Of a stretch of 64,000 nt of DNA, positions 18,760 to 52,641 are shown piece by piece (within the stretch, counting starts at the first letter, position 1; the number at the start of each line of letters is the position of its first letter). The stretch lies in the NCBI GenBank assembly GCA_009869945.1, contig WIXG01000344.1, forward strand, positions 1 through 64,000. Direction: 5' to 3'. This stretch comes from Mesaphorura yosii. Taxonomy: Eukaryota > Arthropoda > Collembola > Poduromorpha > Tullbergiidae. Below the pieces are notes generated by a model. It did no database searches. It was given only the letters and a program-made list of their open reading frames with translations, and was not told where the DNA came from. Position numbers and translations under genes: made by a program.

Positions 18760-19173
18760 TGCGAGTGATGGTAGGCTGCGCTTTGGGAAAACGTTGCGTT
18801 AACGGATCAGTCAGCTTGTAGACTTGCAGCCAGAGTCATTTCGGTGTTCGGTCACGGATGAGAATCCCCGACACCAAGAGTTTGACTTTTGGTTTCAGTC
18901 TTCAGCACCTAATTTTAATTTTTCTCGCCTTGTGCTTCATTTCAGAACACCTCGACATCCGAATTTTATACTGAAACTTTCACGCGTTCATTCCTGATTT
19001 CAGTACATTGAACCTCAACTCGAAAAAGAATCGAATTTTGGGTAAGTTGTGCAGTTCAAGAAAAAGTGGTGGAAAATGTATCTGGGAAGTGATTTAAAAT
19101 CTTCAAACATCTTTTTTATTTTTATTTGTGCAGCTCACTGTTTGTGCCGGCTGAAGTTTGCAAAGCATCGAGA

Positions 19174-20628
19174 ATGACCGATGAAGCTGCAAAAGTCATT
19201 AATCTCTCGATTTGCAAAATGGCCGAGTCAAGAGGTACTCGCCGTGGGGGAACAAGCCTGCACAAGCACTTGCTGATCGCCTCAGTTCTAACCAAAGCTC
19301 GTTCTGCATACATCGAACACTTGTACTTCGGTGATAATGAAGCCACAACGCTGACTCCACTTCCAAGTATTAGTACCTTTTCTGGTCAAAGTCAGTCGTT
19401 TGAGATGGGCGACTCGTCTGCCTTGGGAGAAGACTCCAATATTGCCAACCAACCTGTAATCATTGACTCGTCGTTTTTTGTCGAGGGCGAAATTGACTTG
19501 CCCTCCGACATTCTCAACTGCGTCGAGAAGTTCACAACCATCAACGGCGAAGAAATCCATTTCCTGAGCGGAGAGCAGCAGACTATTGACTCAACTGAAT
19601 TGGCTCAAAATGCGGGGGAAATGATTCTGGCAAATCTTAGCAGTATTGGCAGTTCGTCCACGCAAGCAGGAAACTCTCTCATTTACTTGGGCGCAGAAGT
19701 CGAAGTTCACTCCGACTCGAACGGCACACCATCAAGTAGTTCATCCGCTTCAGTAGAAGCAAAAGTATTGGCTGGACCAATATTGGAACCTAAAGGTATT
19801 AAACGAAGACGAGTCTGGAGCTTCGAGGAAGACCATGAGTATCTGAGTTCGAGCTCCAGCGCGGACGAGAATCAAGAGTACGACGACCACGACGAAGGTT
19901 ACTCCGAGGAGAAATTCAGCTTTGAGCAGTTCCTACCGCAAGAGCTCAACGACAAACTCAAAAAGAATGGTATTAGTGTAACCAAAAACTTCACTAAACG
20001 AAGACGTTTGTCAAAATCAGCTTCAGACATCGCCACAGGCAATAATGGCAGGGATGATGGCTTAACCATTTCAAAGATTGAAGACGCGAAGACTTCTCAG
20101 TTTTCATCCTCCAATTTCCGGACGCGCCAAGAAATTGACGACGCTGAGGAGAATGACCACGATGAAGAAGACTTGTTTTTGGACGAGGATGACGTGTGGG
20201 GCTCCAAATCACAAAATGAAACCAACGACGAGGGCCTATCCAGAAACGACCGCCGTGTTCCTTCAGCGTCATCAGGGTCCAGTGGAAGTGGAAGCGATGA
20301 AGAGGCGGACTTGAACGATGGAGGCTGCGCTATGGAAGTTGACCAAATCACTAGTTTAGTACAATACATTTCATTCAAGCAGCAGCAGCAAACTGGTTCA
20401 AGCTCACCGGCCTGTCCGCCTTCGTCGCCAACTTTGCCCCAGTCAGTGGTAAACTCATTGGCAACTGGTAGCGGTAGCGGCAGTGGCCTTACCCGTTCCG
20501 TGTCAACTCCAGATTTATGCAGTGTTCAAAAATCCAGGGAAAACTCTTCACCTTCAAAGACCAACAATGAGCATCATCACATTTACGGTACTTCTTTTGG
20601 GAATCGCGTCCTTTCCGTCAAAGTTTAA
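19174..20628 (+). CDS. Immediate early response (IER2/IER5) family protein
   Basis: Single coding exon of 484 residues starting at the ATG at 19174. Residues 5-48 match the IER family N-terminal helical domain: AAKVINLSICKMAESR, then RRGGTSLHKHLLIASVL, then ARSAYI, as in vertebrate IER2/IER5 (SLGKI, RGGIKLHKNLLVSLVL, ARQVYL). The family comprises stimulus-induced nuclear regulators; IER5 binds PP2A B55 and promotes HSF1 activation. The rest is disordered: Ser-rich runs, basic KRRR patches near residues 211 and 275 that may be nuclear signals, and two acidic blocks. A 5' UTR intron is likely (donor 19042, acceptor ending 19133, poly-pyrimidine tract before cag), consistent with a single coding exon. 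The protein is longer than IER2 and similar to or longer than IER5. Confidence 0.8.
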   Translation: MTDEAAKVINLSICKMAESRGTRRGGTSLHKHLLIASVLTKARSAYIEHLYFGDNEATTLTPLPSISTFSGQSQSFEMGDSSALGEDSNIANQPVIIDSSFFVEGEIDLPSDILNCVEKFTTINGEEIHFLSGEQQTIDSTELAQNAGEMILANLSSIGSSSTQAGNSLIYLGAEVEVHSDSNGTPSSSSSASVEAKVLAGPILEPKGIKRRRVWSFEEDHEYLSSSSSADENQEYDDHDEGYSEEKFSFEQFLPQELNDKLKKNGISVTKNFTKRRRLSKSASDIATGNNGRDDGLTISKIEDAKTSQFSSSNFRTRQEIDDAEENDHDEEDLFLDEDDVWGSKSQNETNDEGLSRNDRRVPSASSGSSGSGSDEEADLNDGGCAMEVDQITSLVQYISFKQQQQTGSSSPACPPSSPTLPQSVVNSLATGSGSGSGLTRSVSTPDLCSVQKSRENSSPSKTNNEHHHIYGTSFGNRVLSVKV

Positions 20629-28648: not shown

Positions 28649-30073
28649 ATGGTGTTCATGGCTGAGCTCGGTAAGTAGTAATTAAAGTTGAATGCAGCAG
28701 TCATATTCTAGGTGTACGTTTTGTAAACGAATTGACGAATAATTTAATCTTGGAAATAATTTCGCAGCGTCAGATCATAAATACGAGAAGCCCAAGCGTG
28801 AGATACTCTCTCCAGATGATTTGGTAAAGTGGCCCGTTTCGGAAGCGTACAATGTAAGTAGTAGCTTAGTTTGCATTTTAAATGTAATGTTCATAAGCTT
28901 GACATTTGACAAGGTATTAACGTAACGTTGATTTGGAATTTGGTTCTACAGGAGTACATTGAGTTCATCCTGAAGCTAAATACGGCAGTAATGGGCAAGA
29001 AGTTATCTTACGCTGTCACACCGTCACAGAATCTAACAGCTATTATTGGAGTCATATCTAAGCTAAGTGAATGGGTCGACCAAATTCCACCGATTGACCA
29101 GCCCCAGCGATTTGGGAACAAAGCATTTAAGACATGGTTTACAAAGGTCACGGACAATGTGCTGGAGTTGCTGCAGTCGGTTCTCGATCCGCGATATCAT
29201 CCAGCATTAGAAGAAATCACATCTTACTTAATCGACTCTTTTGGAAACTCTACAAGAATTGACTACGGCTCTGGTCACGAGATGAATTTCGTGTTGTTCA
29301 TGTACTGCCTGTTTCGAGTGAAGATTCTGGATTGGTCAAATCAAAATGATCAAATTGGGAGTGTACTTAAACTCTTCGATTCCTACATAACTCTTGCAAG
29401 GAAATTGCAACTCACGTATAGAATGGAGCCTGCAGGAAGTCATGGTGAGTGCCAGAGGGTTTAATTTGAATCGCTCCGTTTCTTTGTCTTTCTCATTATT
29501 TAATTAATTTGACGAACTTCATAGGTGCTTGGAGTTTGGATGATTATCAATTTATTCCATTTATTTGGGGAAGTGCACAGCTGATGAGTAAGTTAGCGGC
29601 AATTTATATGTAATTTCTTGTATAGTTGAAAGAGCACATTATGGTTCTGAATTGTAGGAAATGGACAACTTGAGCCGAATAATATGACTGATGTGAAAGT
29701 CGTAAATGAAGCGAAATCAGAATTCATGTTCTTCGGTTGCATTGACTACATTCTCCAGGTAAAGACAGGCCCCTTTCATGAGCATTCAACCCAGCTCTGG
29801 AACATTAGCGGTGTGGAGAGTTGGACAAAAGTTAATACTGGATTGGTCAAAATGTACAAGGCGGAAATCCTAGCCAAGTACCCCATAATTCAGCACGTGG
29901 TGTTTGGTTCACTCCTCAGTATTAAGAAAATGGACACGGCAGGAAGAGTTCCACAAGTTGGCGCATTTTGTGTTTCCCCAGCCATGAAACCCCCTCCATT
30001 GTTTACTCCACAAAGTCCAGCAGCCACACTCCCTGCAGAGAGTGCCAAGCACGAGGGGAGTGGCGAAAGTTAG
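28649..30073 (+). CDS. PTPA: Serine/threonine-protein phosphatase 2A activator PTPA
   Basis: Five exons: 28649-28670, 28768-28853, 28952-29444, 29525-29587 and 29658-30073, giving 359 residues. PTPA is a peptidyl-prolyl isomerase-like chaperone that activates PP2A catalytic subunits. Conserved blocks include FGNKAFKTWF, the DYGSGHEMNF signature, WSLDDYQFIPFIWGSAQL, MKTGPF-type KTGPFHEHS, QLWNISGVESWTKVN and the MYKAEILAKYPIIQHVVFGSLL C-terminal core, matching the animal protein throughout. The first exon contributes only seven residues, and its ATG is the first in frame with a good gtaagt donor. The last 35 residues are proline-rich and variable. AATAAA follows at 30206-30211. Confidence 0.95.
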
Positions 30074-34735: not shown

Positions 34736-35090
34736 CTAAAGTTGATCCTCCATCCGCCTTGCGCCAGAAAAGTAAAGGTTTAGAAAAACTACTCGAATGC
34801 TTGACGTGACGACTAATCACACATTGGAATGGAACTTATTTAACCATATGTGGTTGGAAATTTCTTTCTAGGATTTCCTGTAGAATATTGCGTAGCATTT
34901 TGGGTCGTATTGTTTAATTAATCAATTAGTGAAATTAAGGTGAAATTGAAATGCTTATCCTTCAATTAACAAATTAAATTATGCAACAGCTCGGCAAATA
35001 TTGAATATCTTGAAGTACTCGAAGGAACTTCATTCGGCAGCTCAAGCTTGGAAGGACAACATGTCAAAGTCGAAGTGAGGCTCTCAGATC

Positions 35091-36364
35091 ATGGAGTCTT
35101 CATCTTTGTCTTGGCTTATCCTGATCTCGAAAGTATTTGGGCAATACCCAGCCGGTATTTTCAGCGGTCACCCCCGGACACGAATTCTTCACGCAATTTG
35201 GACCACTCTGGTTCTCGTATTTCACGTGGTGTTCATTCAGACTTTGTTTGCAGCACAGTATACACTAAGAGCAACGCTGGAGCCAGAACACAACTTCGTG
35301 CTCAATCTGGGCAGTTTTCTGGTGTTGGTGCGATTCGCCATGTCGGCGCTGATTTATGCCACGTGGTTATACAGTACATGCAAATTTCGACGTGCCTTCG
35401 ACGCAATGAGTGCGGTAAAAATCGGTTTTAGTCGTAAACCGCTGTCAGTGACAGCTAGCTTATGGTCAAAATGCCAAAATGTTTGCTGGGTTCTCATATG
35501 GGCAGCATACGCGGTTGTGAACTTGATTGTGGGCGGAACTGTGATTCGTGGCCCTTCGACCAATTACTGCAAAGATTACAGACCCGAATATTTTGCTGGT
35601 TTGAAGAACAGATCATGGATCGCGATGTACTTGGATCTTAGCCACGAATCCCTACCGAAGTTGGCGACGGGCACAATGCCGCATATTTTCGGGCTTTTTC
35701 TGGGAGAAATCTTGGCCATCAATTTCGTTGTCTTGTTTGCGTACCAGATTAGGAGGCGCCTGTACGAATTGACTGAGGACATGGTCACTGCGAAAGCAAG
35801 CACTGCGGAACATATTTACCATCAGACTTTGCGTGTAAGGCGAGCGTTCTTCGCTTTCCAAGCCGCAGCTGGCCCGTTAATTATTGTCCAAATCAGCACA
35901 TTCCTTCTGATGAGCACTATTTTGACCTTTGTATCGGCATCGTTCTTCTTGAGTTCCACAGTTCGTATTATTTATGCTTTTCTCTTACCTGCTCTCTCGG
36001 TGTTCGAGATCCTAAAGGCCTGGGCACTGGCCAGCTGTGGGGAAAGGCTCACCGTGCAAGCGAAAGCTTTTAAATTCGCCGTTTTGAATGCAAGCATTGG
36101 TGGCTCCGGAATTAAATACGGAGCCGGTCACGAAAGTTTAGGCCGGCTACAAAAAATTGTGGACAGCGACGATATGAAGTTTCAACTGACTGGCAATGGG
36201 TACTTTGAACTCAATAAGAAAATGTTGACTTCTGTAAGTACTTAAGTACACATCTTAAGAAGTGCCAATTACTACACTCTTTAATGATTAACCATTTATT
36301 ATAGGCTCTAGCAGCAATCGTGTCATACAATGTGGTCATTGTTCAGTTTCAACTGGCCAACTAA
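35091..36364 (+). CDS. Gustatory-receptor family member, tandem copy 1
   Basis: Exon 35091-36233 joins in phase 0 to 36305-36364, giving 400 residues. About seven hydrophobic segments are visible, starting with LHAIWTTLVLVFHVVFIQTL near residue 33. The short last exon encodes SYNVVIVQFQ, which fits the TYxxxxxQF signature at the end of the last helix of arthropod gustatory receptors. These are ligand-gated cation channels of sensory neurons. About half of the residues are shared with the next gene, including the start (MESSxLxxLILI), QYPAG, IVHGPST-type loop and the segment before the splice (DDMKFQLTG-GYF). Start choice is supported by the matching ATG in copy 2. Ligand unknown. Confidence 0.85.
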
Positions 36365-37287
36365 ATTCGTGATTTTCGTGCTTATCTTCAGTTCGGTGGA
36401 AGAAAAGGATAACTGAAGAAAATGAAGCCGAGACGAGGCGGCTAGGCCCACCAAGCGTTAAGAATTAAGACCAAACACTACAAAATCCCGGTGGGGCCCG
36501 GAAAATGGAGATTGCGGCACACTTCCCCGAAGACGAATGCAATCAAATCGTGCACAATTTTCCACGTTCTGTGCGCTGTTTCTAATTCCGTCCTTCATCA
36601 AGCATTCACCTCACACTTAATCTCATTTTCTGCGATTCCCTGCTGCTAAATGTCAAATTCATTCGTGTTTTCCTTCAGTGGGAAGTTCTTATCAGGTCCA
36701 GACGCAAAGGAGAAATGAGCGCTTTCTAACCCAAAATAAAACGAATTGACATTTTAATTATAATCTTAATAAAAATGTCGTGCTGGGTGAATTATTTCGC
36801 AATCGCATGTTCTGTCGAAGGCAATTAAGGGCTAAAGACTCCAACGGAGAAAATAGCATCTGAAACATTTGCTGAACGGGACCTGAAAAGTGCTTGGAAT
36901 CGAAAAGATGCGAACCATAATCTGCAAAGCATTGTTACGGAAAATCCTTTACTCAAATGGCATTCGATCATTCTTGAATGTATACAATTCTGCATTGGTG
37001 ATTGATTAGGTTGAACGTTTGCCCAGAAGTTGTATATTTAATCGATTTGCTTGTGGGTAATCCTAATTGCAATTAGAAGATTGACTGATTGACTCCTAAC
37101 ACATTTCATCCTTCGCCCCTCAATTAGGAAATTAAAGTTGTGTAACAGCTGAATAAAGCAAACATTGTTCAGTGAATTCGTGAGTTGTGAATTTCGTAAT
37201 ATTGCAGCGGAAGGTTTACTTGACAGCTCGCCCAGTCGCTCTTAGACGGCAAACCCGTTAAGTCCAGGCCAGATCAGTCGTCGAATT
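36365..37287. other. Spacer between tandem receptor genes
   Basis: Holds the copy-1 3' UTR, the second duplication flank (36605-36810) with AATAAA signals at 36735 and 36768, and the presumed promoter of copy 2. No other coding sequence is seen. Confidence 0.45.
36605..36810. repeat. Second copy of the duplication flank
   Basis: Counterpart of 34513-34735 with the same order of shared blocks. Distance between equivalent points is about 2.1 kb, matching the receptor-to-receptor spacing (35091 to 37288 is 2,197 bp). Confidence 0.6.
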
Positions 37288-38552
37288 ATGGAGTCTTCGG
37301 CTTTATACCAGCTAATCTTAATCGCGAAGCTGTTTGGGCAATATCCAGCCGGTGTTTTCACCGGAAACCCGCGTACACGATTGTTTCACGCAATTTGGAC
37401 CATTCTGATGGTGGGGTTTCATGCAGTATGTGTTCAAACCGTGTATGCAGCAATCTTCTCTCGAAGAGTAGCACTGAAACCAGAAGAGAACTTTTTGACC
37501 AATGTCGGCATCATTCTTGGATTCGTGCGATGCACGAGCTCCATTCTGATTCATGTCACATGGTTGTATGGTACTTTCAAATTTCGCCGTGTCATCAAAG
37601 GGTTGAATGATGTCACGTTTAAGGAAAATTTTAGCTCCAAACCGACAGCCTGCCGAATCTGGCCCACATACAGGAAGCTGTGCTGGGTTCTCACCTGGAT
37701 TGTCTACGGGATTTTGAACGCGGTGATTGTCGGAAGTATCGTCCATGGCCCTAGCACCGCTAGTGGCATAAAGTACAGACTCACGTACGTTGCCAAGTTC
37801 AAGACCGGATCATGGATCATGGCGTATTTGGATCTTAGCACCACCACCGAATCCTTATCAAAACTGTTGGCGGTCATAATGTCGCACATATTCATGCTTT
37901 TGCTCTCTGAAATATTGACTATCAATTGCACTGTGCAGACGGCCGGCCAAATTAGAAGGAAATTGCGGGAATTGACGGGAGATTTGACCACGGCAAAGCC
38001 AGACGCTTTGGAACATGTTTATCGTCAGACTTTGCGCTTGAGGGAAGTGTTCTTCGCACTCCAAGTCGCAGCAGGACCTTCGATTGTTGTCCAGATCGGC
38101 TCATTCGTTCTGCTTGGCACTATGTTTATTTTTGTGTCCGCATCTTTGTTATACACTACCGTAGCGCACCTTCTTTTTGCATTTACCATACCCATTCTGA
38201 TGGGATTTGAAATGCTCAAGCCTTGGACGCTAGCACGCTGCGGGGAGGAGCTGACCGTCCAGGCGAAGGCATTCAAATTCGCTGTTTTGAGTGCAAACAC
38301 CGACGACAGCAGATTTGGACACAAAAGTTTGGATCGATTGCAGAAAATTGTGCACAGCGATGACATGAAATTTCAGCTGACTGGCAGTGGATACTTTAAA
38401 CTCAATAAGAGAATGCTGGCTTCAGTAAGTATACAGCGAGTTAATACGTTGCAATGCTTATAAAAGTTAATGCTCTCGTTTTGAATTAGGCGCTGGCAGC
38501 TGTAGTCTCCTACAATGTGGTGATTGTTCAGTTTCAACTCTCAAGTCATTAA
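37288..38552 (+). CDS. Gustatory-receptor family member, tandem copy 2
   Basis: Exon 37288-38424 joins in phase 0 to 38490-38552, giving 399 residues. It has the same two-exon structure and intron phase as copy 1, with a polytopic body and SYNVVIVQFQ in the last exon. Both exon-1 ends read SDDMKFQLTG followed by GYF and a gtaagt donor. Divergence is spread along the protein, strongest in extracellular-type loops (after IVHGPST and near residues 115-130), as expected for receptors with different ligands. No stop or frameshift breaks it, so it appears functional. Flanking similarity shows it arose with copy 1 by tandem duplication. Confidence 0.85.
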
Positions 38553-40925: not shown

Positions 40926-43900
40926 ATGGCACTGTCACCTCAATTAAATCCTCTGCGACCTCGGTCGCCTATGAGCCTAAGATCCCATCCACGGGCAGGC
41001 CAACGCCTGAGCTTCGGCGGCTTCGAGCAGTTCACGTTTCCGCTCTTAATATTAACTTTCGCTGTAGCCACACTGACTTGTCAAGGTGTAGATGTGAACA
41101 GTATCGATGTAAATGTGAAGCAAGTTAATGTGCGTAATTACACGAGCAACAGCATTGCTCGCGGGAAAAATTCAGAGTCACGTAGTGGCAACGACAACGG
41201 CAGCACGTTAATGGCTCAGAAGTTGACTGACGTTTTAATCAAATCCACAGTTACCCCTGAGCCTTCCACAGCAGGGCCAAATCCACCATCACTTCATCCT
41301 ACGGATTCACCAGCTTCTTCCAGACATCAAACCGAATCATTGTCAGCTTCATCGCCGCCGCCGCTGTCAACATCAACAACGACCTCTCCCCCGCAAATCA
41401 GATTAACAACACCAGCCTCTTCATCTTCACACTCAGGCTTGGGCCCAGTCTCGGGTTCCGATAATGTATCTGCTCAACAAAAACGCAAATATGGCGACGA
41501 TTCGTCAACATCAACTGCGTCTGAGACGACGGCAGACAGAAACTTTCCGACACATGAAGAAAAAGAAGAAACTGACCACAGCACACCCACAAACGCTTCT
41601 AAGCTTGGCAATGTCAGCGGTAATGGCAGCGACATAAATGACGGCGGTGGCTACTACGGCTCGGCCGGCAAATCTAAGCGCCATGCACAAGAGGACACGC
41701 TTCAGACAGACGAAGAAAGTTATCACAAAACCTATCGTGCATGCAGAAAGGCCGTGCGAAAATGCTTGGATCAACTTCCACGCTCGCCGATTAACGCGAT
41801 CCCTTCGACGGTGCAGGACCTCGGTAACTCGTGCAGGTGAGCACTCTAATTGATAGGTCAGGTACATCAACACGAGAACACGAACCCGGAATCGAAATCG
41901 GACACAGTTTATTGGCTACTCGGTCTCTCAGCTTTTGGGTCGGGAGTACAAGATTTTTGTTAGGACTAACAAGTTTCATTGGAACCGTATTCTTAACGTT
42001 CTTATTACAGCACAGCACCAATGCATGTACTGCACTAAAGTCAACCATTCATTCCTCATAGGAAGGTACAAATTCATGTCATGCTCTTATAACTTGTAAT
42101 TATGAAGTTGTCAATCCTTGTCTTGTGGTCCTCGCCTTATTAATTCCCATCCCTTTCTTGCCTTGATGTCAAAATGAAAGTTCCTAATTACTTTTGTAAC
42201 TTTCCGTGTCAAGTGTCCATCTTTGCACTTTGGAGATTTTCTTGTGTCAATTCTTTCACTGTTGCGTTTCGCCTTTTCGTGCTGTGTTGTATTATTAAGA
42301 ATTGAGGATCTTGTCTTTATCATTGGACTACTTTGTAATTGTGTGGGTTGGTGTTTCGAGTTCTAGAATTTTACAATGACATTGCAGTAATTTGATAATA
42401 GAAAACACGTTTTGTAAAAGAATCTTCTAGAACACTAACACAAGACTCACTGGAAACTGGGATTAAATACCAGAAAATAGTAACAATCAGAAATTACCTA
42501 CAAGAAAGGCAGAGCATGACATTTAATTAGCATGCTAATGGTTCCAAAATTGGGGCGAGCCCGTGTACCACCGCATTGTAACATTACAAAATTGGTAACT
42601 TTAGACGAGGGTCCTCCGCAATGGGGAATGTATAAAGCTCCTTACAATTTACGAAGGCATGAACAGGAATTGCGTAATTTGAATGGATGTACGCACACAG
42701 TGGCGGTGCAGGTAATTTGATATTATTTTACGTCATTGCTTTCTGGCTGATGTCGGTTTCAACGAAATTTCTTTCCCATTCATGTGCCTAACAAAGTTTT
42801 AGTTTGCTGAGGAAGAAGACCATTAAATTGTGGGAGAAGCGAATTAATAGCCTGGAATTTAATACTGAAAAGTTTCAGACAGGTAGGCAGGTAGACGGAA
42901 ACAACAAGTAGAACGTCCATGTGTTATAAATTCTCCAGTGAAGCCAAGACAAATATTTGTTTACCGAGATCACTTTAACTTTCAACTTCACTGACGACTG
43001 ACGACAATTTCTTTTCTGTCAACTTTTATGACCGAAACGGAAACTGAAACCGCAAAACGAGAAAGAAATTATTGAAAAATGAATCGTGCTTTACGGTCGA
43101 CATCTTCATAAGCTCCTGTCCACATTATTAACATTCATTTTGCTCTTGTTCGCCATTCGTGTTGCGCACGGAGAATGATAATACGGTTGTGCCTTCATTT
43201 GTATGCAGCCCAAGTAAATACTTTGGGACAGAATGCGAATTTTATCACGTCTTTTGCGTCACCATTTGTTATTCAGTATTCGGTGGTCTCCGCGCTGCGA
43301 CTACGATGTGATAAAATATGGTCCAACTCGGCCTGGCCAAGTCCAAATATATTAAGAAGTCAGTCGGTTTATTCGAAAGTGGTAAAGCTAATATGAGAAT
43401 CGTGTTTGCTTCTCGCTTTCGTGCGCTGTGTGCCTGAATGTAAGCCTTTTAAGTTTCCAGTTTCTACCGTGGCCCAACCAACTTTTAGCATTATTTAGCA
43501 ATAAAACACCGAGACCTTCGCGTTTAGGCTTTGCCGGTCTGGATAATGCGGGATTATGTCGTGCGTCGCGGCCTGGTGGGCTGGTTGCTCGGTGTCACAA
43601 AGGGAAAATTCAATTTAGATAATCATGTGTCTGGGATTTAGATATGAGGCTCGAGCCAGTCGGTAAATTCAGCATACGGTAGCAATGAAGTGATGCTCGG
43701 AAGCGGGTTGCGGGCAATTGGAAAGCAGTCCATTTGTATGCATGACGAAGAATTTGCGACGAAATGTGGCAAAAGGGCGAACCATTTCATTTCTTACTAG
43801 TGGAGGGTTGATTGAAATTGAAAATTTAGGTCGGTCTGGTTCTGGCATTTCTTGTGCACGTAATTTATTCAATTCCGAGCCAAAATCTTAATCAAATGAT

Positions 43901-46900
43901 GAACTTTTTACACAATGTTCCTGGTCTGCGAATTAATTAGCATCGGAATGGTAAAATTATAATTTTTTAGGCGCATGTTTACGAAAGCCCCACGTCACTC
44001 TCTTGACATTTCAGGAATTTACGCTCAAAAGCAGAAAAACTTGTGAAAAAGAAAGTTCAAGCGAATTGTTGTAGTCTAGCTCGCCTTCTGTTTTCTTTGT
44101 GATTGTGATGTCTGATGAATGTACTTAGATAGTTTTGGTTCACTGCTCTAGATCATTTGAGAACTCGGCTCAAGAGTCTGTAGAAACTTTTTTCTTAACT
44201 CCAATTTCTTTCCAGCACTTCGCGGCCTCAACTTTCTTTTCAATCGAGGTGTGTGTTTAGTTTGTATGGATTAGTTTGATCTCATTTTGTTTTAAAACTC
44301 TACCTGCTTGTTTTAAAAGTTCTGTCAATGAAGTCTCTACTTTTCGACTCGTTATCTCGCTCCACACACTCGACGCCTGCCTTTCAGTGGTAACATAATA
44401 GAATCTAGCCCATACCTTCGCTGTCTTGCACATCTTTTTGACTCGTTCAGGGTCGCACTTGGATAATTGGCTGCAAACTTTTTCATGAATAATTTTCTTC
44501 TTTCTTTTGAACCGCGGACCGGACTACACTGCTTTTGTTTCCACGGAGATTTTTCAAGTTTGGGAGATTTTTCACGGTAAAAACATCATTCTTTGACGGA
44601 ATGATGAAAGAATCCTTCCGATCTTGCCTGAATTAAGCCCTACTTTTATGAAGGGCTCTGAATTTTGCTGAATAAGACGCAAAACACTGGTGCAGAACTA
44701 TGCATTTTGCAAGACAAACTTTAATTGCCTTCTTTACAACTAGTTTCTTGTTCGGCCTCAGTTTTTTGCGTCTCGCTATAAGCAGACTCAGCGGAAGTGA
44801 CTCGGAGCCTAGATACTGAATACAGGCAGTCAAGTAAAGTAATTTGCATTAGCGCAAGACACAAGCCAAAAATGCTGGCAAACCATAAAGTAAAGTAGGA
44901 TGAGACAAATTAATGAAATAGCGCAGCGCGTGGGTAATTAATTATGTAAGGGTTTAAGACGCACGCACGGCAAGGCAGGGAAAAAGTTTTGCGAGGATTT
45001 CTTATTTTTGTGTTCCAAGAAAGTGAAGCTTCTCATTTGACTTGAAAATTGGCTGACGTTAAAGGCAGATCTGGGAAACTGGGATTTCTGGCAAGAAATA
45101 CTTCAAGAAGATTATGCTTTAAGCCTAATTAATTAATTGTTGTATGGAGATATGATGCATGAAGCAGACTTGGACGGAAGTTCATTCGCTTCTCAGGCTT
45201 CCAGCAAATTCTTGTACTAGTCGGTCTCGACTTGTTAATTCTTTTGTCCCACGCAAATTCTGAACTTAAGAAATACTTTTAGAATTAAGCTAAACAATAC
45301 TCCGAATTTTGAGCTTGCCTTTACGTGCATTTGCTTGAAGTATTTACGGACACTTTCTAAAGTTCAATTTAGGATCAGACGAAAATGGAAATATAAATAT
45401 TTTGTTCCTGCCTTGTCTTGCCCTGTTTTTTCCCACAACCCCTCCACTGAGAGAAGCAAATGCGGAGTAAACGCGTAGTGTATGAGAGCGATGAACGAAT
45501 AAACTCTCTCGGGCAAAGTTTATTTTATGAACGCCGTTTCGCTTTCGAGAAATGCGACGCAAATAATTTAAACATCCAGTTAATATGCAATATGCAAAGG
45601 TAAGTGGATACTTGACTACCGTGCTTGATGCATAAAATATTGCAAATTTGCCTGCGTGGTGCCCAGTGACAGAGTAACTTTGCTTGCTCACCTGCCCGTT
45701 TGCGCATCCATTACTTTTCTTGCGCACGATTCCGCTCTGCACAGTTCTCACATGAATCTTGCTTTCCAAAATATTACTTTTTGGCAAACTTTCCCATTTT
45801 TTTGAACATCAGCTTGACTGACTTTAGTAAGTCTCGCGCAACAAATTAGATTGATGTACAATCAACAACCGAAGCGAAAGGCGAATGCTTTGCTCGGCTC
45901 GCTGAAAATAGAAAATATACATTGTTGAATTCTTCCTTTGTCTTTAATTATAATTGGAACGTGATTACCAGTCAACAGTAATGAGATGTTGATTCAAATG
46001 CTAATGAGCGCATTGCGCATGACGCTTGATTTAACGAGACAAATGAGAGCTCAACGTTATAGATGAGCCATGAACTTCAAAGACTATTTTTAGGCCTGCC
46101 GCTTTATCAGTTTTCTTTTGTAATTACAGGGCATTCGAGAATGGTGTTAATTGCTTTAACAACGTGTCGTGCTTCGAGGAAGACCACCGCGAGCATCTCA
46201 TCATGCACATTCATGCGGAGTACGAAATCCTTAAATTCTTATGCTATAACGACTCGTTTCGAGTCTCGTGTCTACCCATACCCACCACGATGACGCCAAC
46301 GACCCAGGCCGGGGAGTCCAGGCCCCGAGAAGAAGTTCGCTACAAAGAAGTAGCTGACCGGTGGAACAATTGCACCAAGACGCAAATGATGCGAGTGAAT
46401 ATGCTTCACGCTTGGAAGAAATCTGAGGATTTTTGCTGGTAAGCGAAAGCAGTATGCTCAAAGCTCGTTTCGTATTTATTGCATTACATTTTGTGTGCTT
46501 GCTCTTCTAGTATCAAAATCACATTCACTGAATGCATCTCAGCCGGTAGTAGCGATAAGAATGAGCACAATACTACTCGATACCTGGAATCAATGAGTAG
46601 AACTTACGTGGAATTGCTTCGTCGTGAGAATAATCTGACGAGAACAGACGTGGAGAAGTGTGCGGCCGTAAAATCGGAGGCGTGTGTGCGGGGAAGTGAT
46701 AATAAACCGAATAATGGTAAGACTCATTACGAGCTGGCAGGCAATAATGTAAGAAGCTTGCGCTTGGTGGTTCTTGGAAATGGTGTACAAGAAGGAATTT
46801 TTGGAAACAGGAAACGAGAACACGCACGCTTTGACCGACGTTCATCTCAGCGACGATACAAACACTCACGCCGCCGCCCGCGCGTCGCAGAACAAGAGGA

Positions 46901-49900
46901 AGTCCATGCAGGATCAATATCATTATGAGTTTGAGTATGATGAAGACGAAGATGAAGATGATGATGAAGATAATGATGAAGATAATGACAGTTATCATCG
47001 CCATTATCATGATAGAAAAAGTGCGGGCGACAACGGGAAAGCGATGACAAAGTTGAGCAGTGCCAAGAACGCAGGCGGTACCGACGGGAAAGGCACAACT
47101 ACCGGAGGAGGAACCAAGAAGAAACTGCTGAGCAAGTGCAGCGAAGCCCTGGAAAAGTGTATCGAGCAAATCCCGCCGATGCCCGACGCCGGGATTCCTT
47201 CAACACTTCAAAGTGTCAAGAAAGCTTGCAGGTAAGCAAGCATCACATCATTGTCATTCGTGTGACGCGTCACGCCACAGCTAGGCTCTTGGTAAACAAG
47301 ACGCAGATAAACCCAGACTCGAACACAGACAAGGCAATTATAGAGATTAGTTTATAATTGCATTAACGTGAAGCAGAAATTGACACAGCAACCCAGTGTC
47401 TTCAAGTCATGAGAGATGAAGTTTATTCCAAAGCACTCCGTGTGCTCTCGGACGATACGCGCTAAGCAGTAAGCGGCCGCAAAAGTTTCGCGTACACAAA
47501 GTAAAGTTTGAGTTTTGAACCTCATCTCGGGCGACCGTGTTTACTGAAAACAAAAAAAAAAAGTTTTTCCAATCATGAAGATGTCAACTGCTGGCACGAC
47601 AAGCTGGTTGCGGAGTCGCGTGGCATTTAGCTGTAGGAGTCCCAAGAGTGAGATCTTTTAGTGGACAATCTATTATAAAGTTATTTGAGTTTGTACCTCC
47701 ACAACTGCTTCACATAAAATACCTTTATCACTTTAATTTCAATCATTGAAAGCGTAGGAGCGGAAATTGGAGTTGTTATCTGCTATGAAATTCCCTCAGC
47801 ATTCCAGTGCTCTACTCTACTGGAGTGCGGATAGAAAGAAAGGACGTGCCACATGCTGTCCTGTTCGTATTTTCGCATTAAAATTTCGAGGAATCTGAAC
47901 GCAAATACTAATGCTTGTAGTAAATTCAGAAATTCTGTGGAATTTGACTTACTTCATTCGCCCTTAAAGTTAGTTCTCTCCATTCTTGTCCGTAAACAAA
48001 CTATTGTTGGAAAGCATAATTTGCCTTGAACTTGAATTGTAAAGTTTAAATTAAGCTTTGTGAGTGAGAAGTTTGGCAAAAACAATTTCTAGTTCATGGC
48101 TTAAATATTCGCTGGGTGATCTAACAACACTACATTGTGCCTAAATTCTTGCTCACCTAATTGCGAGTCATGAGGTTTTCGCTTCACGCTTCCTTAGAAT
48201 TGAAAGTGTAAATCGCGTTCTCAGAAAGAATCCACGCTGCACTGGGCTCACAACTTTGTTTCGGCTGAACTTTGGCATGTGTGGAATAACACAAACTGTG
48301 AAGAGACGCGAGCAAATGTCGGCTCACTAATTAATTAACATCTTTTTTCAGTCCAAAGCAGTCCTAAAATCTCATTACTGGCTTGTTTTCAATGAGTCAC
48401 TGAAACGTTTCGGAGAAAAAGTACAAAAACTCCATAAAATGTCTCCAAGACAGGGCACCAGGCACAATAGTTACCACTTTTCGGAGAAGGTAATAACTTG
48501 TCAAACTGTACATGCATCTGTTGAATTGATGGGTACCAAATTCTCAGAAGTTCTGTCTCACTAATGCTAATTGGCTGTTGGACGCCTTCTCCGCGAAAAG
48601 ATTCGTGCCTGCGTTCTCAGTTCCATTTAATATTTGAATTTATACGACCGTAGGCGTTTTCGTGCTAATGGAGGCGCAATGACAAAGCTCAATTGCATTT
48701 GTGACTTACAAAGCCGACAATATCAGGGAAGAAATTGAAGTTCTTGAAGAAACTTGGAATTTTTGGAATGCAGAAGTTTAGCTTGTCCTTCTTTATTTTA
48801 ATAGTTTATTAGAAAATTTTACCATGCTAGACTTGCACTTCCATTCAACAATCACCTGCAGCTTTGGAGTCTTTTTCCGCCTCTCTGCTGCAGAAATTGA
48901 ATATTTCATAAGGAGAGACGGGAATGAGAGTCTGACCGAGATAAAAAGTCTCATGTCTCATCAATCTTTCAGTTACTCAAGAAAAAGATCCCAAGAAGGC
49001 TTCTTCGACGTTTAATCGAAATCTGCCTTCCATACGGTCGGCTGGTCTGAAACACTTGAACACGTGCTTCCCGAATAAAGCTTCACATCGAAGATATTAA
49101 AATTCCAGGAAATCGAAGTCAGCCGACTAAAAGGGAACAGGACGGCAATTTGAATTGAATTCTTTCTGGGTCGATGAAATTACTACAGATGCAATGCTTG
49201 GAGATGTGAATATGTGCAACTGCTCTAATGCAAATGATAACGAGTAAAACGAGATATTTTATTGGAGTTCTGCTCCTCAAATGAAGTACGTACTTCCCAA
49301 TCTAGTAATTTTAGGGAGATTTTGCTTTAGTAATTCGACATCTGTTCTCCTTTACTGAATTAATTCAAATGAATTTTTAAAGTCTAAACTTTAAAAGAAG
49401 TCATTCCAGCCAAGCAGATAACTATGTCATTTATTAAAAAGCATTTTGCATTGACGCACGTCGGAAGTCAGTACACCGGCTTCTTTGTAAAGATAAAAGG
49501 CGTGGAAAGACACGGGAAGAGTTCACGTTTTCCGCTCCGCTGAATTCTGTGTTTTAATGAATGTTTTAACGTTAATTAATTGAAAAATGATTAAAATCTG
49601 GCCTTCCTCTTAATCAATCATGAGACGCTGTTGTGATCGACCTTAATTAAAAGTTCGCCATATAAGAAATTGCATCGATCGAAGCCATGATTACGAATAA
49701 TTACTTGTCATTCAAATACTTGGACGTTATCGTCACTCAACGTCAACAGCAGTGGGCCCATTAATTAGAACGAACGGTATTTTACATATTGTAATTAAAT
49801 TATGAGTGTGATGAAGAAAATACTGCAGAGCTCTTCTCATTAGATTTCTTAGAATGCCGCCTCAGAAAAGTTCCAACCGGTTTTGTTTGTGCAGAATGCA

Positions 49901-52641
49901 GACTTATTTAAATGGTAATGAGATTTGTTTTTAATTGCTAGTGAGCCAGAATTCACTCCTAGAACTTGAGCCAAAGTATAATTTATGAGTCACATGGATT
50001 TTCGATTGCATTTTCCGCACCTGCAAAATTTTAGCTTTATTCACACCGTAAATATTGACATTTTGTTCAGAACGTGTCCTTCTGCACTCATAAATCTTTC
50101 TCTTTGAACAAACGAACCAACTAATGCCACTTCTGTCCCATTCGTGGGAAATCTCCCAACACAGCGCAGAATTCCAATGAAAGGAAGAAAGCGGTGAAGA
50201 CTTTCTCTAAGAGTACGGAAAGAGGTATTTCAGGAATTCACGTTATGAGTAGTTAACAATAATTACAAGAAATCCTTAAGCCACAGTAAGAGTTATTTTC
50301 GGGTACGGGTTCCCAAAATATACAGCCAAGGCCAATTTATTGCAGTACAGTACATATGTGAAGGTAGTAAAGGAATTCCAATATCGGTACTTCCAGAAAG
50401 TCCACTTGTACAACTGCTGAGTTGTAGTTTTAGTGTTTGAACCCAAGTATCACACTCAGAGTAGCATAAACATTCGAAAATTAATTAATCGCATTGTATT
50501 TTGTACGCGAATCGTGCAAGAACAGCGGAAGCATTTGAATGAAAAAAGTTCTCCCGTCGGCGATTGAGCTGGAATTGGAACCTTGTTTCTAAATACTTAT
50601 TTTCTGTATTTTGTACTTCATTATCATTGCAGTGCATTTCACAACGGGACTGAATGCGTGAACAGGGCGACAAAGGACTGCTTGAATGAAAAGGAACGCC
50701 AACAAGTCCACAATTCAATTCTTGGTGCCCATGAAACCTTCACGTTTCTCTGCAATGATGACACATTCCGGTCAGCGTACCTGAAGCACGGCCCCTGCTA
50801 CAATAAAATTTCAAAGCACTGGGATAATTGCGTGAGGAAATTCATCTCTGCACTCAGACAGCTGAAAGACTCGCAAAAGTCCTTGGAAGTTTGCTGGTAA
50901 GCGAAAGTACAGCGCAGCATAGAATTTTCCTCGCGTCCGCGTCGCATAGATTCCACCAGCTCAAGTTATACTTAAGTAAATTGAATTGAAGATTTGCCAA
51001 CAAAAACGAGCGAAAACAGACTTCCGAAGAAAAATGTGGCTGTAATTCTGTGAGGAGACAGAGAGTAAGGCTAATGGCGTAAGGATAGTATAATTCGGTG
51101 CATAATACAATAATTTGGGCGATATGGCACACTATTAGAATCGCGTGCTGAGGCTGAAGAATCAATTTACGAGATGCGAGATACGATTTAAGAATATATA
51201 ATTTATCGGATTACGATTATGCCAAGTCGACCCGAGCCGCCGAAACGGGAAAGTCGTCACCCTTGCAATGCCATTCGACGCTTTCGCACACTAAATCCTG
51301 GCGTGGCACGGCACGGCGTAGCGGTGGCCCTGGCGCTGATTTATGCCAATTGCCTAGAAGCCTATAAAGTACATGCCAAACTAAAAGAAAGTAAAGTCAG
51401 AGTCGGATGAAAGTGAACTCAGCGTCTCCGCCGGCCTGGCCCAGTTTATGGCCCAACTCAGAATCACTGACTTTGCTGGATACGTGCAAGGCCTGAGAAG
51501 AGACCCGATATTAATTTTCCAAGTGAGCGACTTAACATAATGAGGACAAGACGTTCTGTGGTTGTGGCTGTACTAACGACCAGGTTCATGCTCGAGACTC
51601 AGGGCAAATCCTGGCGGGGTTTTTGGGCTTTGCACTTGACAACTGTACTGCGCGTAATCCCATCGTAAGATTCAGAGTCAGAATGCAGTGGTTTATGATT
51701 TTTTACAATATGACAAAACCGCTACACAAACCACTCCTGTTCGGTTCCTGGCTTCTTCCATTATTTTTAAGGAAAAGGAAAGATTCGATTTATTTCGTTT
51801 ATACATACTCCTGGTTTCCTCGAAGAATTTTGGAGAAAGTCGAAACGCCGAACGCCTGAGCGACAGACTTGTAATTGCGACAGTCACGTTTCCGCTTTTC
51901 TTCACAGAAATTTTCCTTCTTTTACGGTGACTGAGTGACGGTGTTCACTTGATTAAGAATGTCGCACGTCGAAGAACACCGCACCATGATTGAATAACAA
52001 TGATCCAAAGAAGCGTATCAGTCTGTATTGCAGAAAGGCGAAGGCCAACGTTTTGTATTGCTCTTTTACGACAGTACCAGAAAAGCGTCGAATCGAACTG
52101 TGGATTTTCCATGCGAGCTTACAGTTACTGTCGTCAATAAAAGTCCGAAGTCAAAGAAGTGACTCTGGTCCAGAATAAATTTACTGCTAATTTAATAGTG
52201 CAGGTCTCATCCGTTGTTTTTGTCCAATATTGATTTTCCGCTGTTTACTTATTCATTACATTACTGAGCCGCGTCTAGCGTCTGGAACTGACCGTCGATC
52301 GTGAACGTGTTTTTGTTTGTTTCAGCTTGCGGATGGCGTTCCTGCACTGCGTCATGGACGTCACGAACCGGTACTGTGATCACAACGCGACACAATTCAT
52401 GCGACTTCTGAGCGAGACGTTGATCCGTTCCACGATGCACAGCCACACGCCAAATCAGTGTCTCACTGTCAAAAGAGACCACTGTCCCATCGTCCAAAAC
52501 TCTGCCGGCCGCTTCGGTCGCGCAGTCGGCCACCATGAAGGCTCAAGTCATCGTTTCACGTGGATTCTGGGACGCGTGGTCCTGTCGCTGACAATGATGG
52601 ACCTCGTAACGGTTTATTACACTCGGTTTATTATTACTTAA
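40926..52641 (+). CDS. Secreted two-module cysteine-rich protein, unknown family
   Basis: Six exons: 40926-41836, 46130-46438, 46511-46716, 46811-47231, 50633-50896 and 52326-52641, giving 808 residues. The N-terminus has a hydrophobic signal-anchor or late signal peptide (LLILTFAVATLTCQG near residue 40), then 210 Ser/Thr/Pro-rich residues. Module 1 is CRKAVRKCLDQLP, IPSTVQ and C at the end of exon 1, AFENGVNCFN in exon 2 (ending FCW) and exon 3 with TEC, EKC and EAC. Module 2 repeats it: CSEALEKCIEQIP, IPSTLQ (exon 4), AFHNGTECVN ending VCW (exon 5), and HCV, NQC, DHC (exon 6). Both modules have phase-2 splices at equal points. An Asp/Glu-rich linker lies between them. A hydrophobic C-terminal stretch may be a GPI signal (inference). 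The exon 3-4 junction is uncertain: an acceptor at 46756 is also in frame but leaves a 40-bp intron. Confidence 0.8.
41837..46129. other. Large first intron of the cysteine-rich gene
   Basis: 4.3 kb, the longest intron seen here. Only short ORFs and AT-rich sequence; no nested gene or element is supported. Confidence 0.5.
47232..50632. other. Large intron between the two modules
   Basis: 3.4 kb separating module 1 plus the module-2 start from exon 5. It contains only an A-run near 47551-47563 and short ORFs. Its size mirrors the large intron at the equivalent point in module 1. Confidence 0.5.
50897..52325. other. Intron 5 of the cysteine-rich gene
   Basis: 1.4 kb with no supported internal gene; ORFs at 51219-51410 and 51623-51930 lack recognisable features. 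Confidence 0.45.

Follow-up and report, generated by a model that had tools for sequence, protein, structure and literature searches.

The stretch of DNA analysed here, called the window in what follows, comprises 64,000 nucleotides of the collembolan Mesaphorura yosii (positions 1 to 64,000 of contig WIXG01000344.1, assembly GCA_009869945.1) and carries on its forward strand, between positions 40,926 and 52,641, a six-exon gene model in which all introns are of the GT-AG type and the joined exons form a single open frame of 808 amino acids (aa). The introns measure, in order, 4293, 72, 94, 3401 and 1429 bp and lie in phases 2, 2, 1, 2 and 2. The protein is composed of a hydrophobic segment, a Ser/Thr/Pro-rich region, the sequence KSKR, a cysteine-rich module 1, an acidic linker, a cysteine-rich module 2 and a hydrophobic end. 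From the sequence, each module is proposed to consist of two six-cysteine halves of about 75 residues (1a and 1b, 2a and 2b), whose cysteines are spaced like those of neuritin and of the N-terminal domain of RGM; the gene product is most likely a divergent, four-unit, mucin-bearing form of an already known, though poorly understood, kind of secreted cysteine-rich animal protein, and not a wholly new domain. The features of the gene are the following:

40926-41836, + strand: exon 1, with the start, the hydrophobic segment, the mucin-like region, KSKR and Cys1-Cys3 of half-domain 1a
41034-41090, + strand: hydrophobic segment, best 19-mer of a Kyte-Doolittle scan (aa 37-55), a candidate signal anchor, or else a signal peptide whose n-region is long
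41094-41729, + strand: mucin-like Ser/Thr/Pro-rich region (aa 57-268)
41670-41681, + strand: KSKR (aa 249-252), a furin-like processing motif by pattern match only
46130-46438, + strand: exon 2, with Cys4-6 of half-domain 1a and the first part of 1b
46511-46716, + strand: exon 3, with the second Cys of the CC pair and the remainder of half-domain 1b, ending in phase 1
46717-46810, + strand: intron of 94 bp connecting module 1 to the linker, with a GTAAG donor and a poor polypyrimidine tract
46811-47231, + strand: exon 4, with the linker and then Cys1-3 of half-domain 2a
46930-46989, + strand: acidic Asp/Glu run within the linker
50633-50896, + strand: exon 5, with Cys4-6 of half-domain 2a and Cys1-3 of 2b, the best DUF1397 match
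52326-52641, + strand: exon 6, with the second Cys of the CC pair, the remainder of half-domain 2b, the hydrophobic C-terminus and the stop
52555-52638, + strand: C-terminal hydrophobic segment (aa 781-808), a candidate glycosylphosphatidylinositol (GPI) signal

The two modules are the product of a duplication. Module 1 (aa 270-465) contains 13 cysteines and module 2 (aa 579-757) contains 14, for a total of 27; they align in BLASTP with 97 bits and 51/195 identical residues (26%), and their Smith-Waterman (SW) score of 244, against a mean of 33 and a maximum of 69 in 2000 shuffles, bears out the exon-triplet duplication put forward in the first-pass annotation. The introns of both modules sit at matching positions, and the motifs on which that proposal was founded (C..A..KC..Q.P, IPST.Q, AF.NG..C and three late cysteines) are identical columns in the alignment of the two sequences. 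One detail of the same proposal does not survive splicing: the C-W exon endings are an artefact of reading on into the intron. In its spliced form module 2 contains C-S-A-F, not C-R-A-F. Since the intron-split codons TG/T and TG/C encode Cys, each module has a CC pair at this site. Both boundaries of exon 2 are in phase 2 and fall in the codon next to a third cysteine, that of 1a at the 5' end and that of 1b at the 3' end.

Exons 2 and 5 have in common, at their donor ends (46432-46449 and 50890-50907), a run of 18 identical bases, 11 of them intronic (TTTGCTGGTAAGCGAAAG), in contrast to the low identity of the modules as a whole; common descent of the junction, conversion and chance are the candidate explanations. 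The genome searched comprises 93.0 Mb in 1127 contigs, and with the exon-5 open reading frame (ORF) and exon 2 as queries it showed no further copy of the gene with two modules, match counts being lower bounds; among the matches listed, these queries found themselves, each other and one further place at E 1.99. In a search for relatives outside the genome, stretches fitting a pattern numbered 5 in viral contigs and 64 in bacterial and archaeal contigs, with none confirmed in either set, which is not informative for arthropods.

The linkage of the two modules in one protein depends on the intron 46717-46810, which is required for joining the frames because 94 bp is not a multiple of three. Two genes or isoforms, with module 1 running on through this intron until the stop 46926-46928 and a separate transcript for module 2, are very improbable: the poor polypyrimidine tract of the 94-bp intron and the frame of exon 3, which stays open to 46925, would suit such an arrangement, but exon 4, inspected by eye, is without a start with a signal peptide for an independent module 2, and the GTAAG donor together with a phase-compatible acceptor preserves one frame.

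The internal organization of the modules is suggested by their cysteines. Counting the CC pair by its first Cys, the spacings are 6-22-8-7-23 in 2a and 10-20-8-8-27 in 2b, to be compared with 4-22-8-7-21 in the N-terminal domain of RGMB (RGMB-N; RGM_N, PF06535), which is similar to 2a, with 9-24-8-7-27 in neuritin (NRN1, PF15056), which is near both 2a and 2b, and with 10-17-8-7-23 in the second half of C329, one of three DUF1397 (PF07165) genes of the same genome spliced by eye (C85a, C85b and C329). The central pattern C-x8-C-x7/8-C is found in 2a and 2b, as C-x8-C-x7-C in neuritin, and 1a has C-x8-C-x5-C. In module 2 the spacing pattern, chosen after seeing the data, occurs twice; among 200,000 shuffles a double occurrence was seen in 0 and a single one in 977. 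In all four half-domains the codon that follows Cys3 is interrupted by an intron in phase 2 and, every half-domain being split in this way, no contiguous piece contains a whole one. Since each of the two modules would be a tandem pair of half-domains, the protein is proposed to carry four six-cysteine units, whereas neuritin has one only.

Profile matches were obtained from Pfam scans against 24736 families, with curated cut-offs of 25.7 bits for DUF1397, 32.7 for CPG4 (PF15481), 23.2 for DUF19 (PF01579), 27 for NRN1 and 24.2 for RGM_N. The exon-5 ORF, a query that includes some intron-coded residues, matches DUF1397 at E 3.2e-5 with 23.8 bits, under the cut-off; spliced forms of module 2 of 143, 89 and 167 aa match it at E 4.1e-4, 8.2e-4 and 1.9e-3 (20.2 bits for the best spliced form, also under the cut-off) and a mis-spliced form of 174 aa at E 3.9e-4, while in the genome-wide DUF1397 search exon 5 is among six places, with 21.7 bits. 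Half 1a is matched by the nematode family CPG4 (19.7 bits, E 0.0012, profile 3-63 of 94), by DUF1397 (15.1 bits, E 0.015) and by the likewise nematode family DUF19 (14.3 bits, E 0.038, profile 12-76); half 2a alone is matched by DUF19 (17.4 bits, E 0.0041, profile 83-152) and by DUF1397 (E 0.024), all the scores in bits lying below the respective cut-offs. A longer module-2 form matches DUF19 profile 11-143 in register, and human neuritin matches the same profile at 10-84. None of 10 cysteine-fixed shuffles, made from module 2 (4), half 1a (3) and a DUF1397 half (3), matches DUF1397, CPG4 or DUF19 at E<=10. The earlier remark that no named family was known for this pattern is correct insofar as no Pfam model exceeds its cut-off; it is weakened by these recurrent sub-threshold matches, which the shuffles do not reproduce, and by the agreement of the cysteine framework and of one intron position with the DUF1397 genes of the same genome.

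In those genes, which score 93 bits (C85a domain), 68 bits (C329 domain) and 50 bits (C85b protein) against DUF1397, two sets of six cysteines are present as in the window modules. A five-way alignment places 11/12 cysteines of module 2 in register, with b5 (the fifth of the second half) one column off, and 10/12 of module 1, which is without b1 and b5; b3 of C85b is itself displaced by a gap. C329 and both modules share a phase-2 intron that falls in the codon immediately following b3, which is not found in C85a and C85b (1/3 DUF1397 genes). A hydrophobic tail follows the last cysteine in 3/3 of these members and in the window protein. The differences are that DUF1397 proteins have a single module, to which the window gene adds the mucin-like region, the linker and the CC pair, and that the DUF1397 genes carry introns at sites lacking in the window gene, namely between the halves and, in 2/3, before Cys2. 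The intron between the two halves of C85a (L010, reverse strand) is apparently of the GC-AG type.

The second halves of the DUF1397 proteins also resemble neuritin, and not in their cysteines alone; the neuritin sequence compared scores 136 bits against NRN1. For C329 the SW score is 67, with 0/400 full and 0/400 cysteine-fixed shuffles as good; for C85b and C85a it is 61 and 44, with 1/400 and 4/400 cysteine-fixed shuffles as good. Against NRN1 itself the second halves of C85b and C329 reach 18.7 and 19.6 bits, under the cut-off. The resemblance of the C329 (L012) second half to vertebrate neuritin was not found in print in one literature search lacking most subscription papers.

Several results weigh against reading the modules as DUF1397-like pairs of half-domains. 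Half 1b keeps only 4/6 cysteines, without Cys1 and Cys5, so its six-cysteine spacing is broken, and the strict spacing pattern is absent from module 1; the coincidence of the introns in the a and b halves counts as one independent event. Direct similarity between halves is at chance (2a versus 2b, SW 21, 336/400 shuffles as good; 1a versus 1b, 277/400), as is that of 1a, 1b and 2b to RGMB-N and neuritin; for 2a, 3 and 8 of 400 full shuffles are as good against RGMB-N and neuritin, but 27 and 28 of the cysteine-fixed ones. In Pfam no model exceeds its cut-off for any form of the protein, module or half scanned, the whole 808-aa protein has 0 families at E<=1, half 2b alone has 0 matches to DUF1397, CPG4 or DUF19, and DUF1397 matches neither the exon-2, exon-3 and exon-6 ORFs nor the 104-aa exon 2; the 208-aa module 1 matches CPG4 at E 0.013 and not DUF1397, and the 194-aa module 2 matches, among these families, only RGM_N (E 0.77). 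Pairwise comparisons with C329, C85a and C85b are marginal for module 2 (6, 21 and 62 of 1000 shuffles as good) and mostly at chance for module 1 (591, 73 and 111 of 1000). A hidden Markov model (HMM) of the two modules did not retrieve the DUF1397 proteins, ranked 345, 378 and 404 among shuffled decoys, and hhalign of small alignments was uninformative (A1 versus the DUF1397 alignment A2, probability 1.1; A3 versus the half-domain alignment A4, probability 0.3). The structure predicted for exon 5 is all helical with low confidence (mean predicted local distance difference test score 61.9), and its structure search gave a best PDB match at E 1.1, with 0/41 listed matches at E<=0.001. What speaks for DUF1397 is therefore the Pfam profile together with the cysteines and the intron, and not pairwise similarity.

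An undescribed extracellular domain unrelated to the DUF1397 and neuritin types, in which the spacing would be due to convergence among helical disulfide proteins, would account for the lack of any model over cut-off, the chance-level similarity between halves, the marginal similarity of the modules to DUF1397 and the failure of the module HMM to bring the DUF1397 paralogues above decoys. It is nonetheless unlikely, as the same few secreted cysteine-rich families recur out of all those scanned, cysteine-fixed shuffles do not bring them back, and the cysteine alignment and the intron site are common to the DUF1397 gene C329. The somewhat better supported view is that each module is a divergent DUF1397-like domain made of tandem six-cysteine helical halves of the neuritin, RGM-N, CPG4 and DUF19 type, in an anchored, glycosylated, ligand-binding surface protein. 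The exon-triplet duplication would then probably be the second of two, because each module itself looks like two six-cysteine halves: a single unit, its third cysteine followed by a phase-2 intron, would have duplicated first, and the resulting pair was duplicated again with the exon triplet.

Other families and structures were considered. NRN1 is matched neither by halves 1a, 2a and 2b in Pfam nor anywhere in the genome; module 2 reaches only 9-12 bits against RGM_N, below the cut-off, and no RGM C-terminal domain is found in the 808-aa protein (Pfam, 0 families). Three RGM_N matches in the genome (E 0.35 to 5.8), of which the DNA of one (L015) was inspected, look like chance. Neither CPG4 nor DUF19 exceeds its cut-off in the genome, which for DUF19 is not proof of absence. 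The GFR-alpha (GDNF) family was set aside, no match to that Pfam family being among those listed for the module queries; a GDNF-receptor (GFR-alpha type) domain exon is present at L017 1405-1683 on C132 (22.4 bits, cut-off 22). PDB searches by sequence with module 2, with alignments A2 and A4 and with the further half-domain alignment A5 returned nothing convincing, and a short resemblance of module 2 to the ligand BMP10 in the QLKDSQKSLEVCC region (50633-52641; E 0.2) was judged to be chance.

Outside the modules, the mucin-like N-terminal region and the hydrophobic C-terminus noted in the first pass were both recovered, the former with 79/212 residues being Ser, Thr or Pro, the latter in a modest form (mean Kyte-Doolittle value 1.27 over the last 20 residues). 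The N-terminal hydrophobic segment, the 14 N-glycosylation sequons of the 808-aa protein and the module cysteines indicate that the product is probably secreted; it is perhaps membrane-anchored, the C-terminal segment being not ideal as a GPI signal because it contains Arg and Asp.

DUF1397 is also known as insect 27-kDa hemolymph glycoprotein, and the Galleria 27-kDa hemolymph protein and the silkworm 27 kDa glycoprotein are presumably DUF1397 proteins. A '27 kDa glycoprotein' appears in silkworm hemocyte data, and DUF1397 appears in centipede venom lists, where it has no known function; in C. elegans, DUF19 is listed with 51 genes, most of them encoding a signal peptide, and its domain is of unknown function. 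A structural or proteoglycan-like matrix protein, secreted and made of the same domains, with glycans on the mucin region and modules that cross-link or store, is possible although on balance not expected. The best match of half 1a is CPG4, and C. elegans CPG-4 is listed as one of the core proteins of chondroitin proteoglycans with a low-complexity domain (PMC11632948); a DUF1397 protein, with Anopheles orthologues, is listed among secreted proteins of the Aedes peritrophic matrix (PMC5865745), and a 27-kDa hemolymph protein is found in Galleria hemolymph (PMC7141616). However, Ser-Gly pairs, tried as evidence of a proteoglycan, show no enrichment within the mucin region (4 observed versus 3.0 expected, p 0.34), a result that is neutral as to chondroitin attachment, and the hydrophobic C-terminal tails here and in all three DUF1397 paralogues favour anchoring.

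Neuritin and the RGMs are GPI-anchored, with a hydrophobic tail after the last cysteine. RGMb is called GPI-anchored (PMC11488336), and the RGM N-terminal domain, a bundle of three helices with three disulfides, binds BMP2 and GDF5 (PMC7354924). Because of this binding, of the helical prediction for exon 5 and of the hydrophobic tails in the window and DUF1397 proteins, a surface co-receptor or ligand trap is considered, by analogy, the most likely function, with the matrix or proteoglycan role second. The 808-aa product would enter the secretory pathway; its mucin-like part could hold the modules away from the cell, unless removed at the furin-like site, and a C-terminal lipid or membrane anchor may retain the remainder at the surface, where the paired helical bundles would engage an extracellular ligand in the way that bone morphogenetic proteins are bound by the RGM N-terminal three-helix bundle.

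The neighbouring genes within the window include ordinary ones, with an IER-family ORF at 19093-20625 and a PTPA exon at 28910-29461. Two similar-looking ORFs resembling seven-transmembrane chemoreceptors lie in tandem at 35079-36242 and 37246-38460; the second matches 7tm_7 and the first is without a Pfam family at E<=0.01.

In a wider perspective, one animal superfamily might unite DUF1397 of arthropods, DUF19 and CPG4 of nematodes, neuritin of vertebrates and RGM-N, all built on a helical unit that has six cysteines and a phase-2 intron behind Cys3; the window gene, as a four-unit, mucin-carrying surface co-receptor, would then display the origin of the tandem forms, and this proposal is tentative and somewhat short of an even chance. 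A joint treatment of neuritin, DUF1397, CPG4, RGM_N and DUF19 was not found in a literature search lacking most subscription papers. If the half-domain reading is true, DUF1397 and DUF19, which in Pfam are domains of unknown function, would be grouped with neuritin and with the RGM domain that binds BMPs, and the secreted DUF1397 and DUF19 proteins of arthropods and nematodes would gain a first testable idea of their role.

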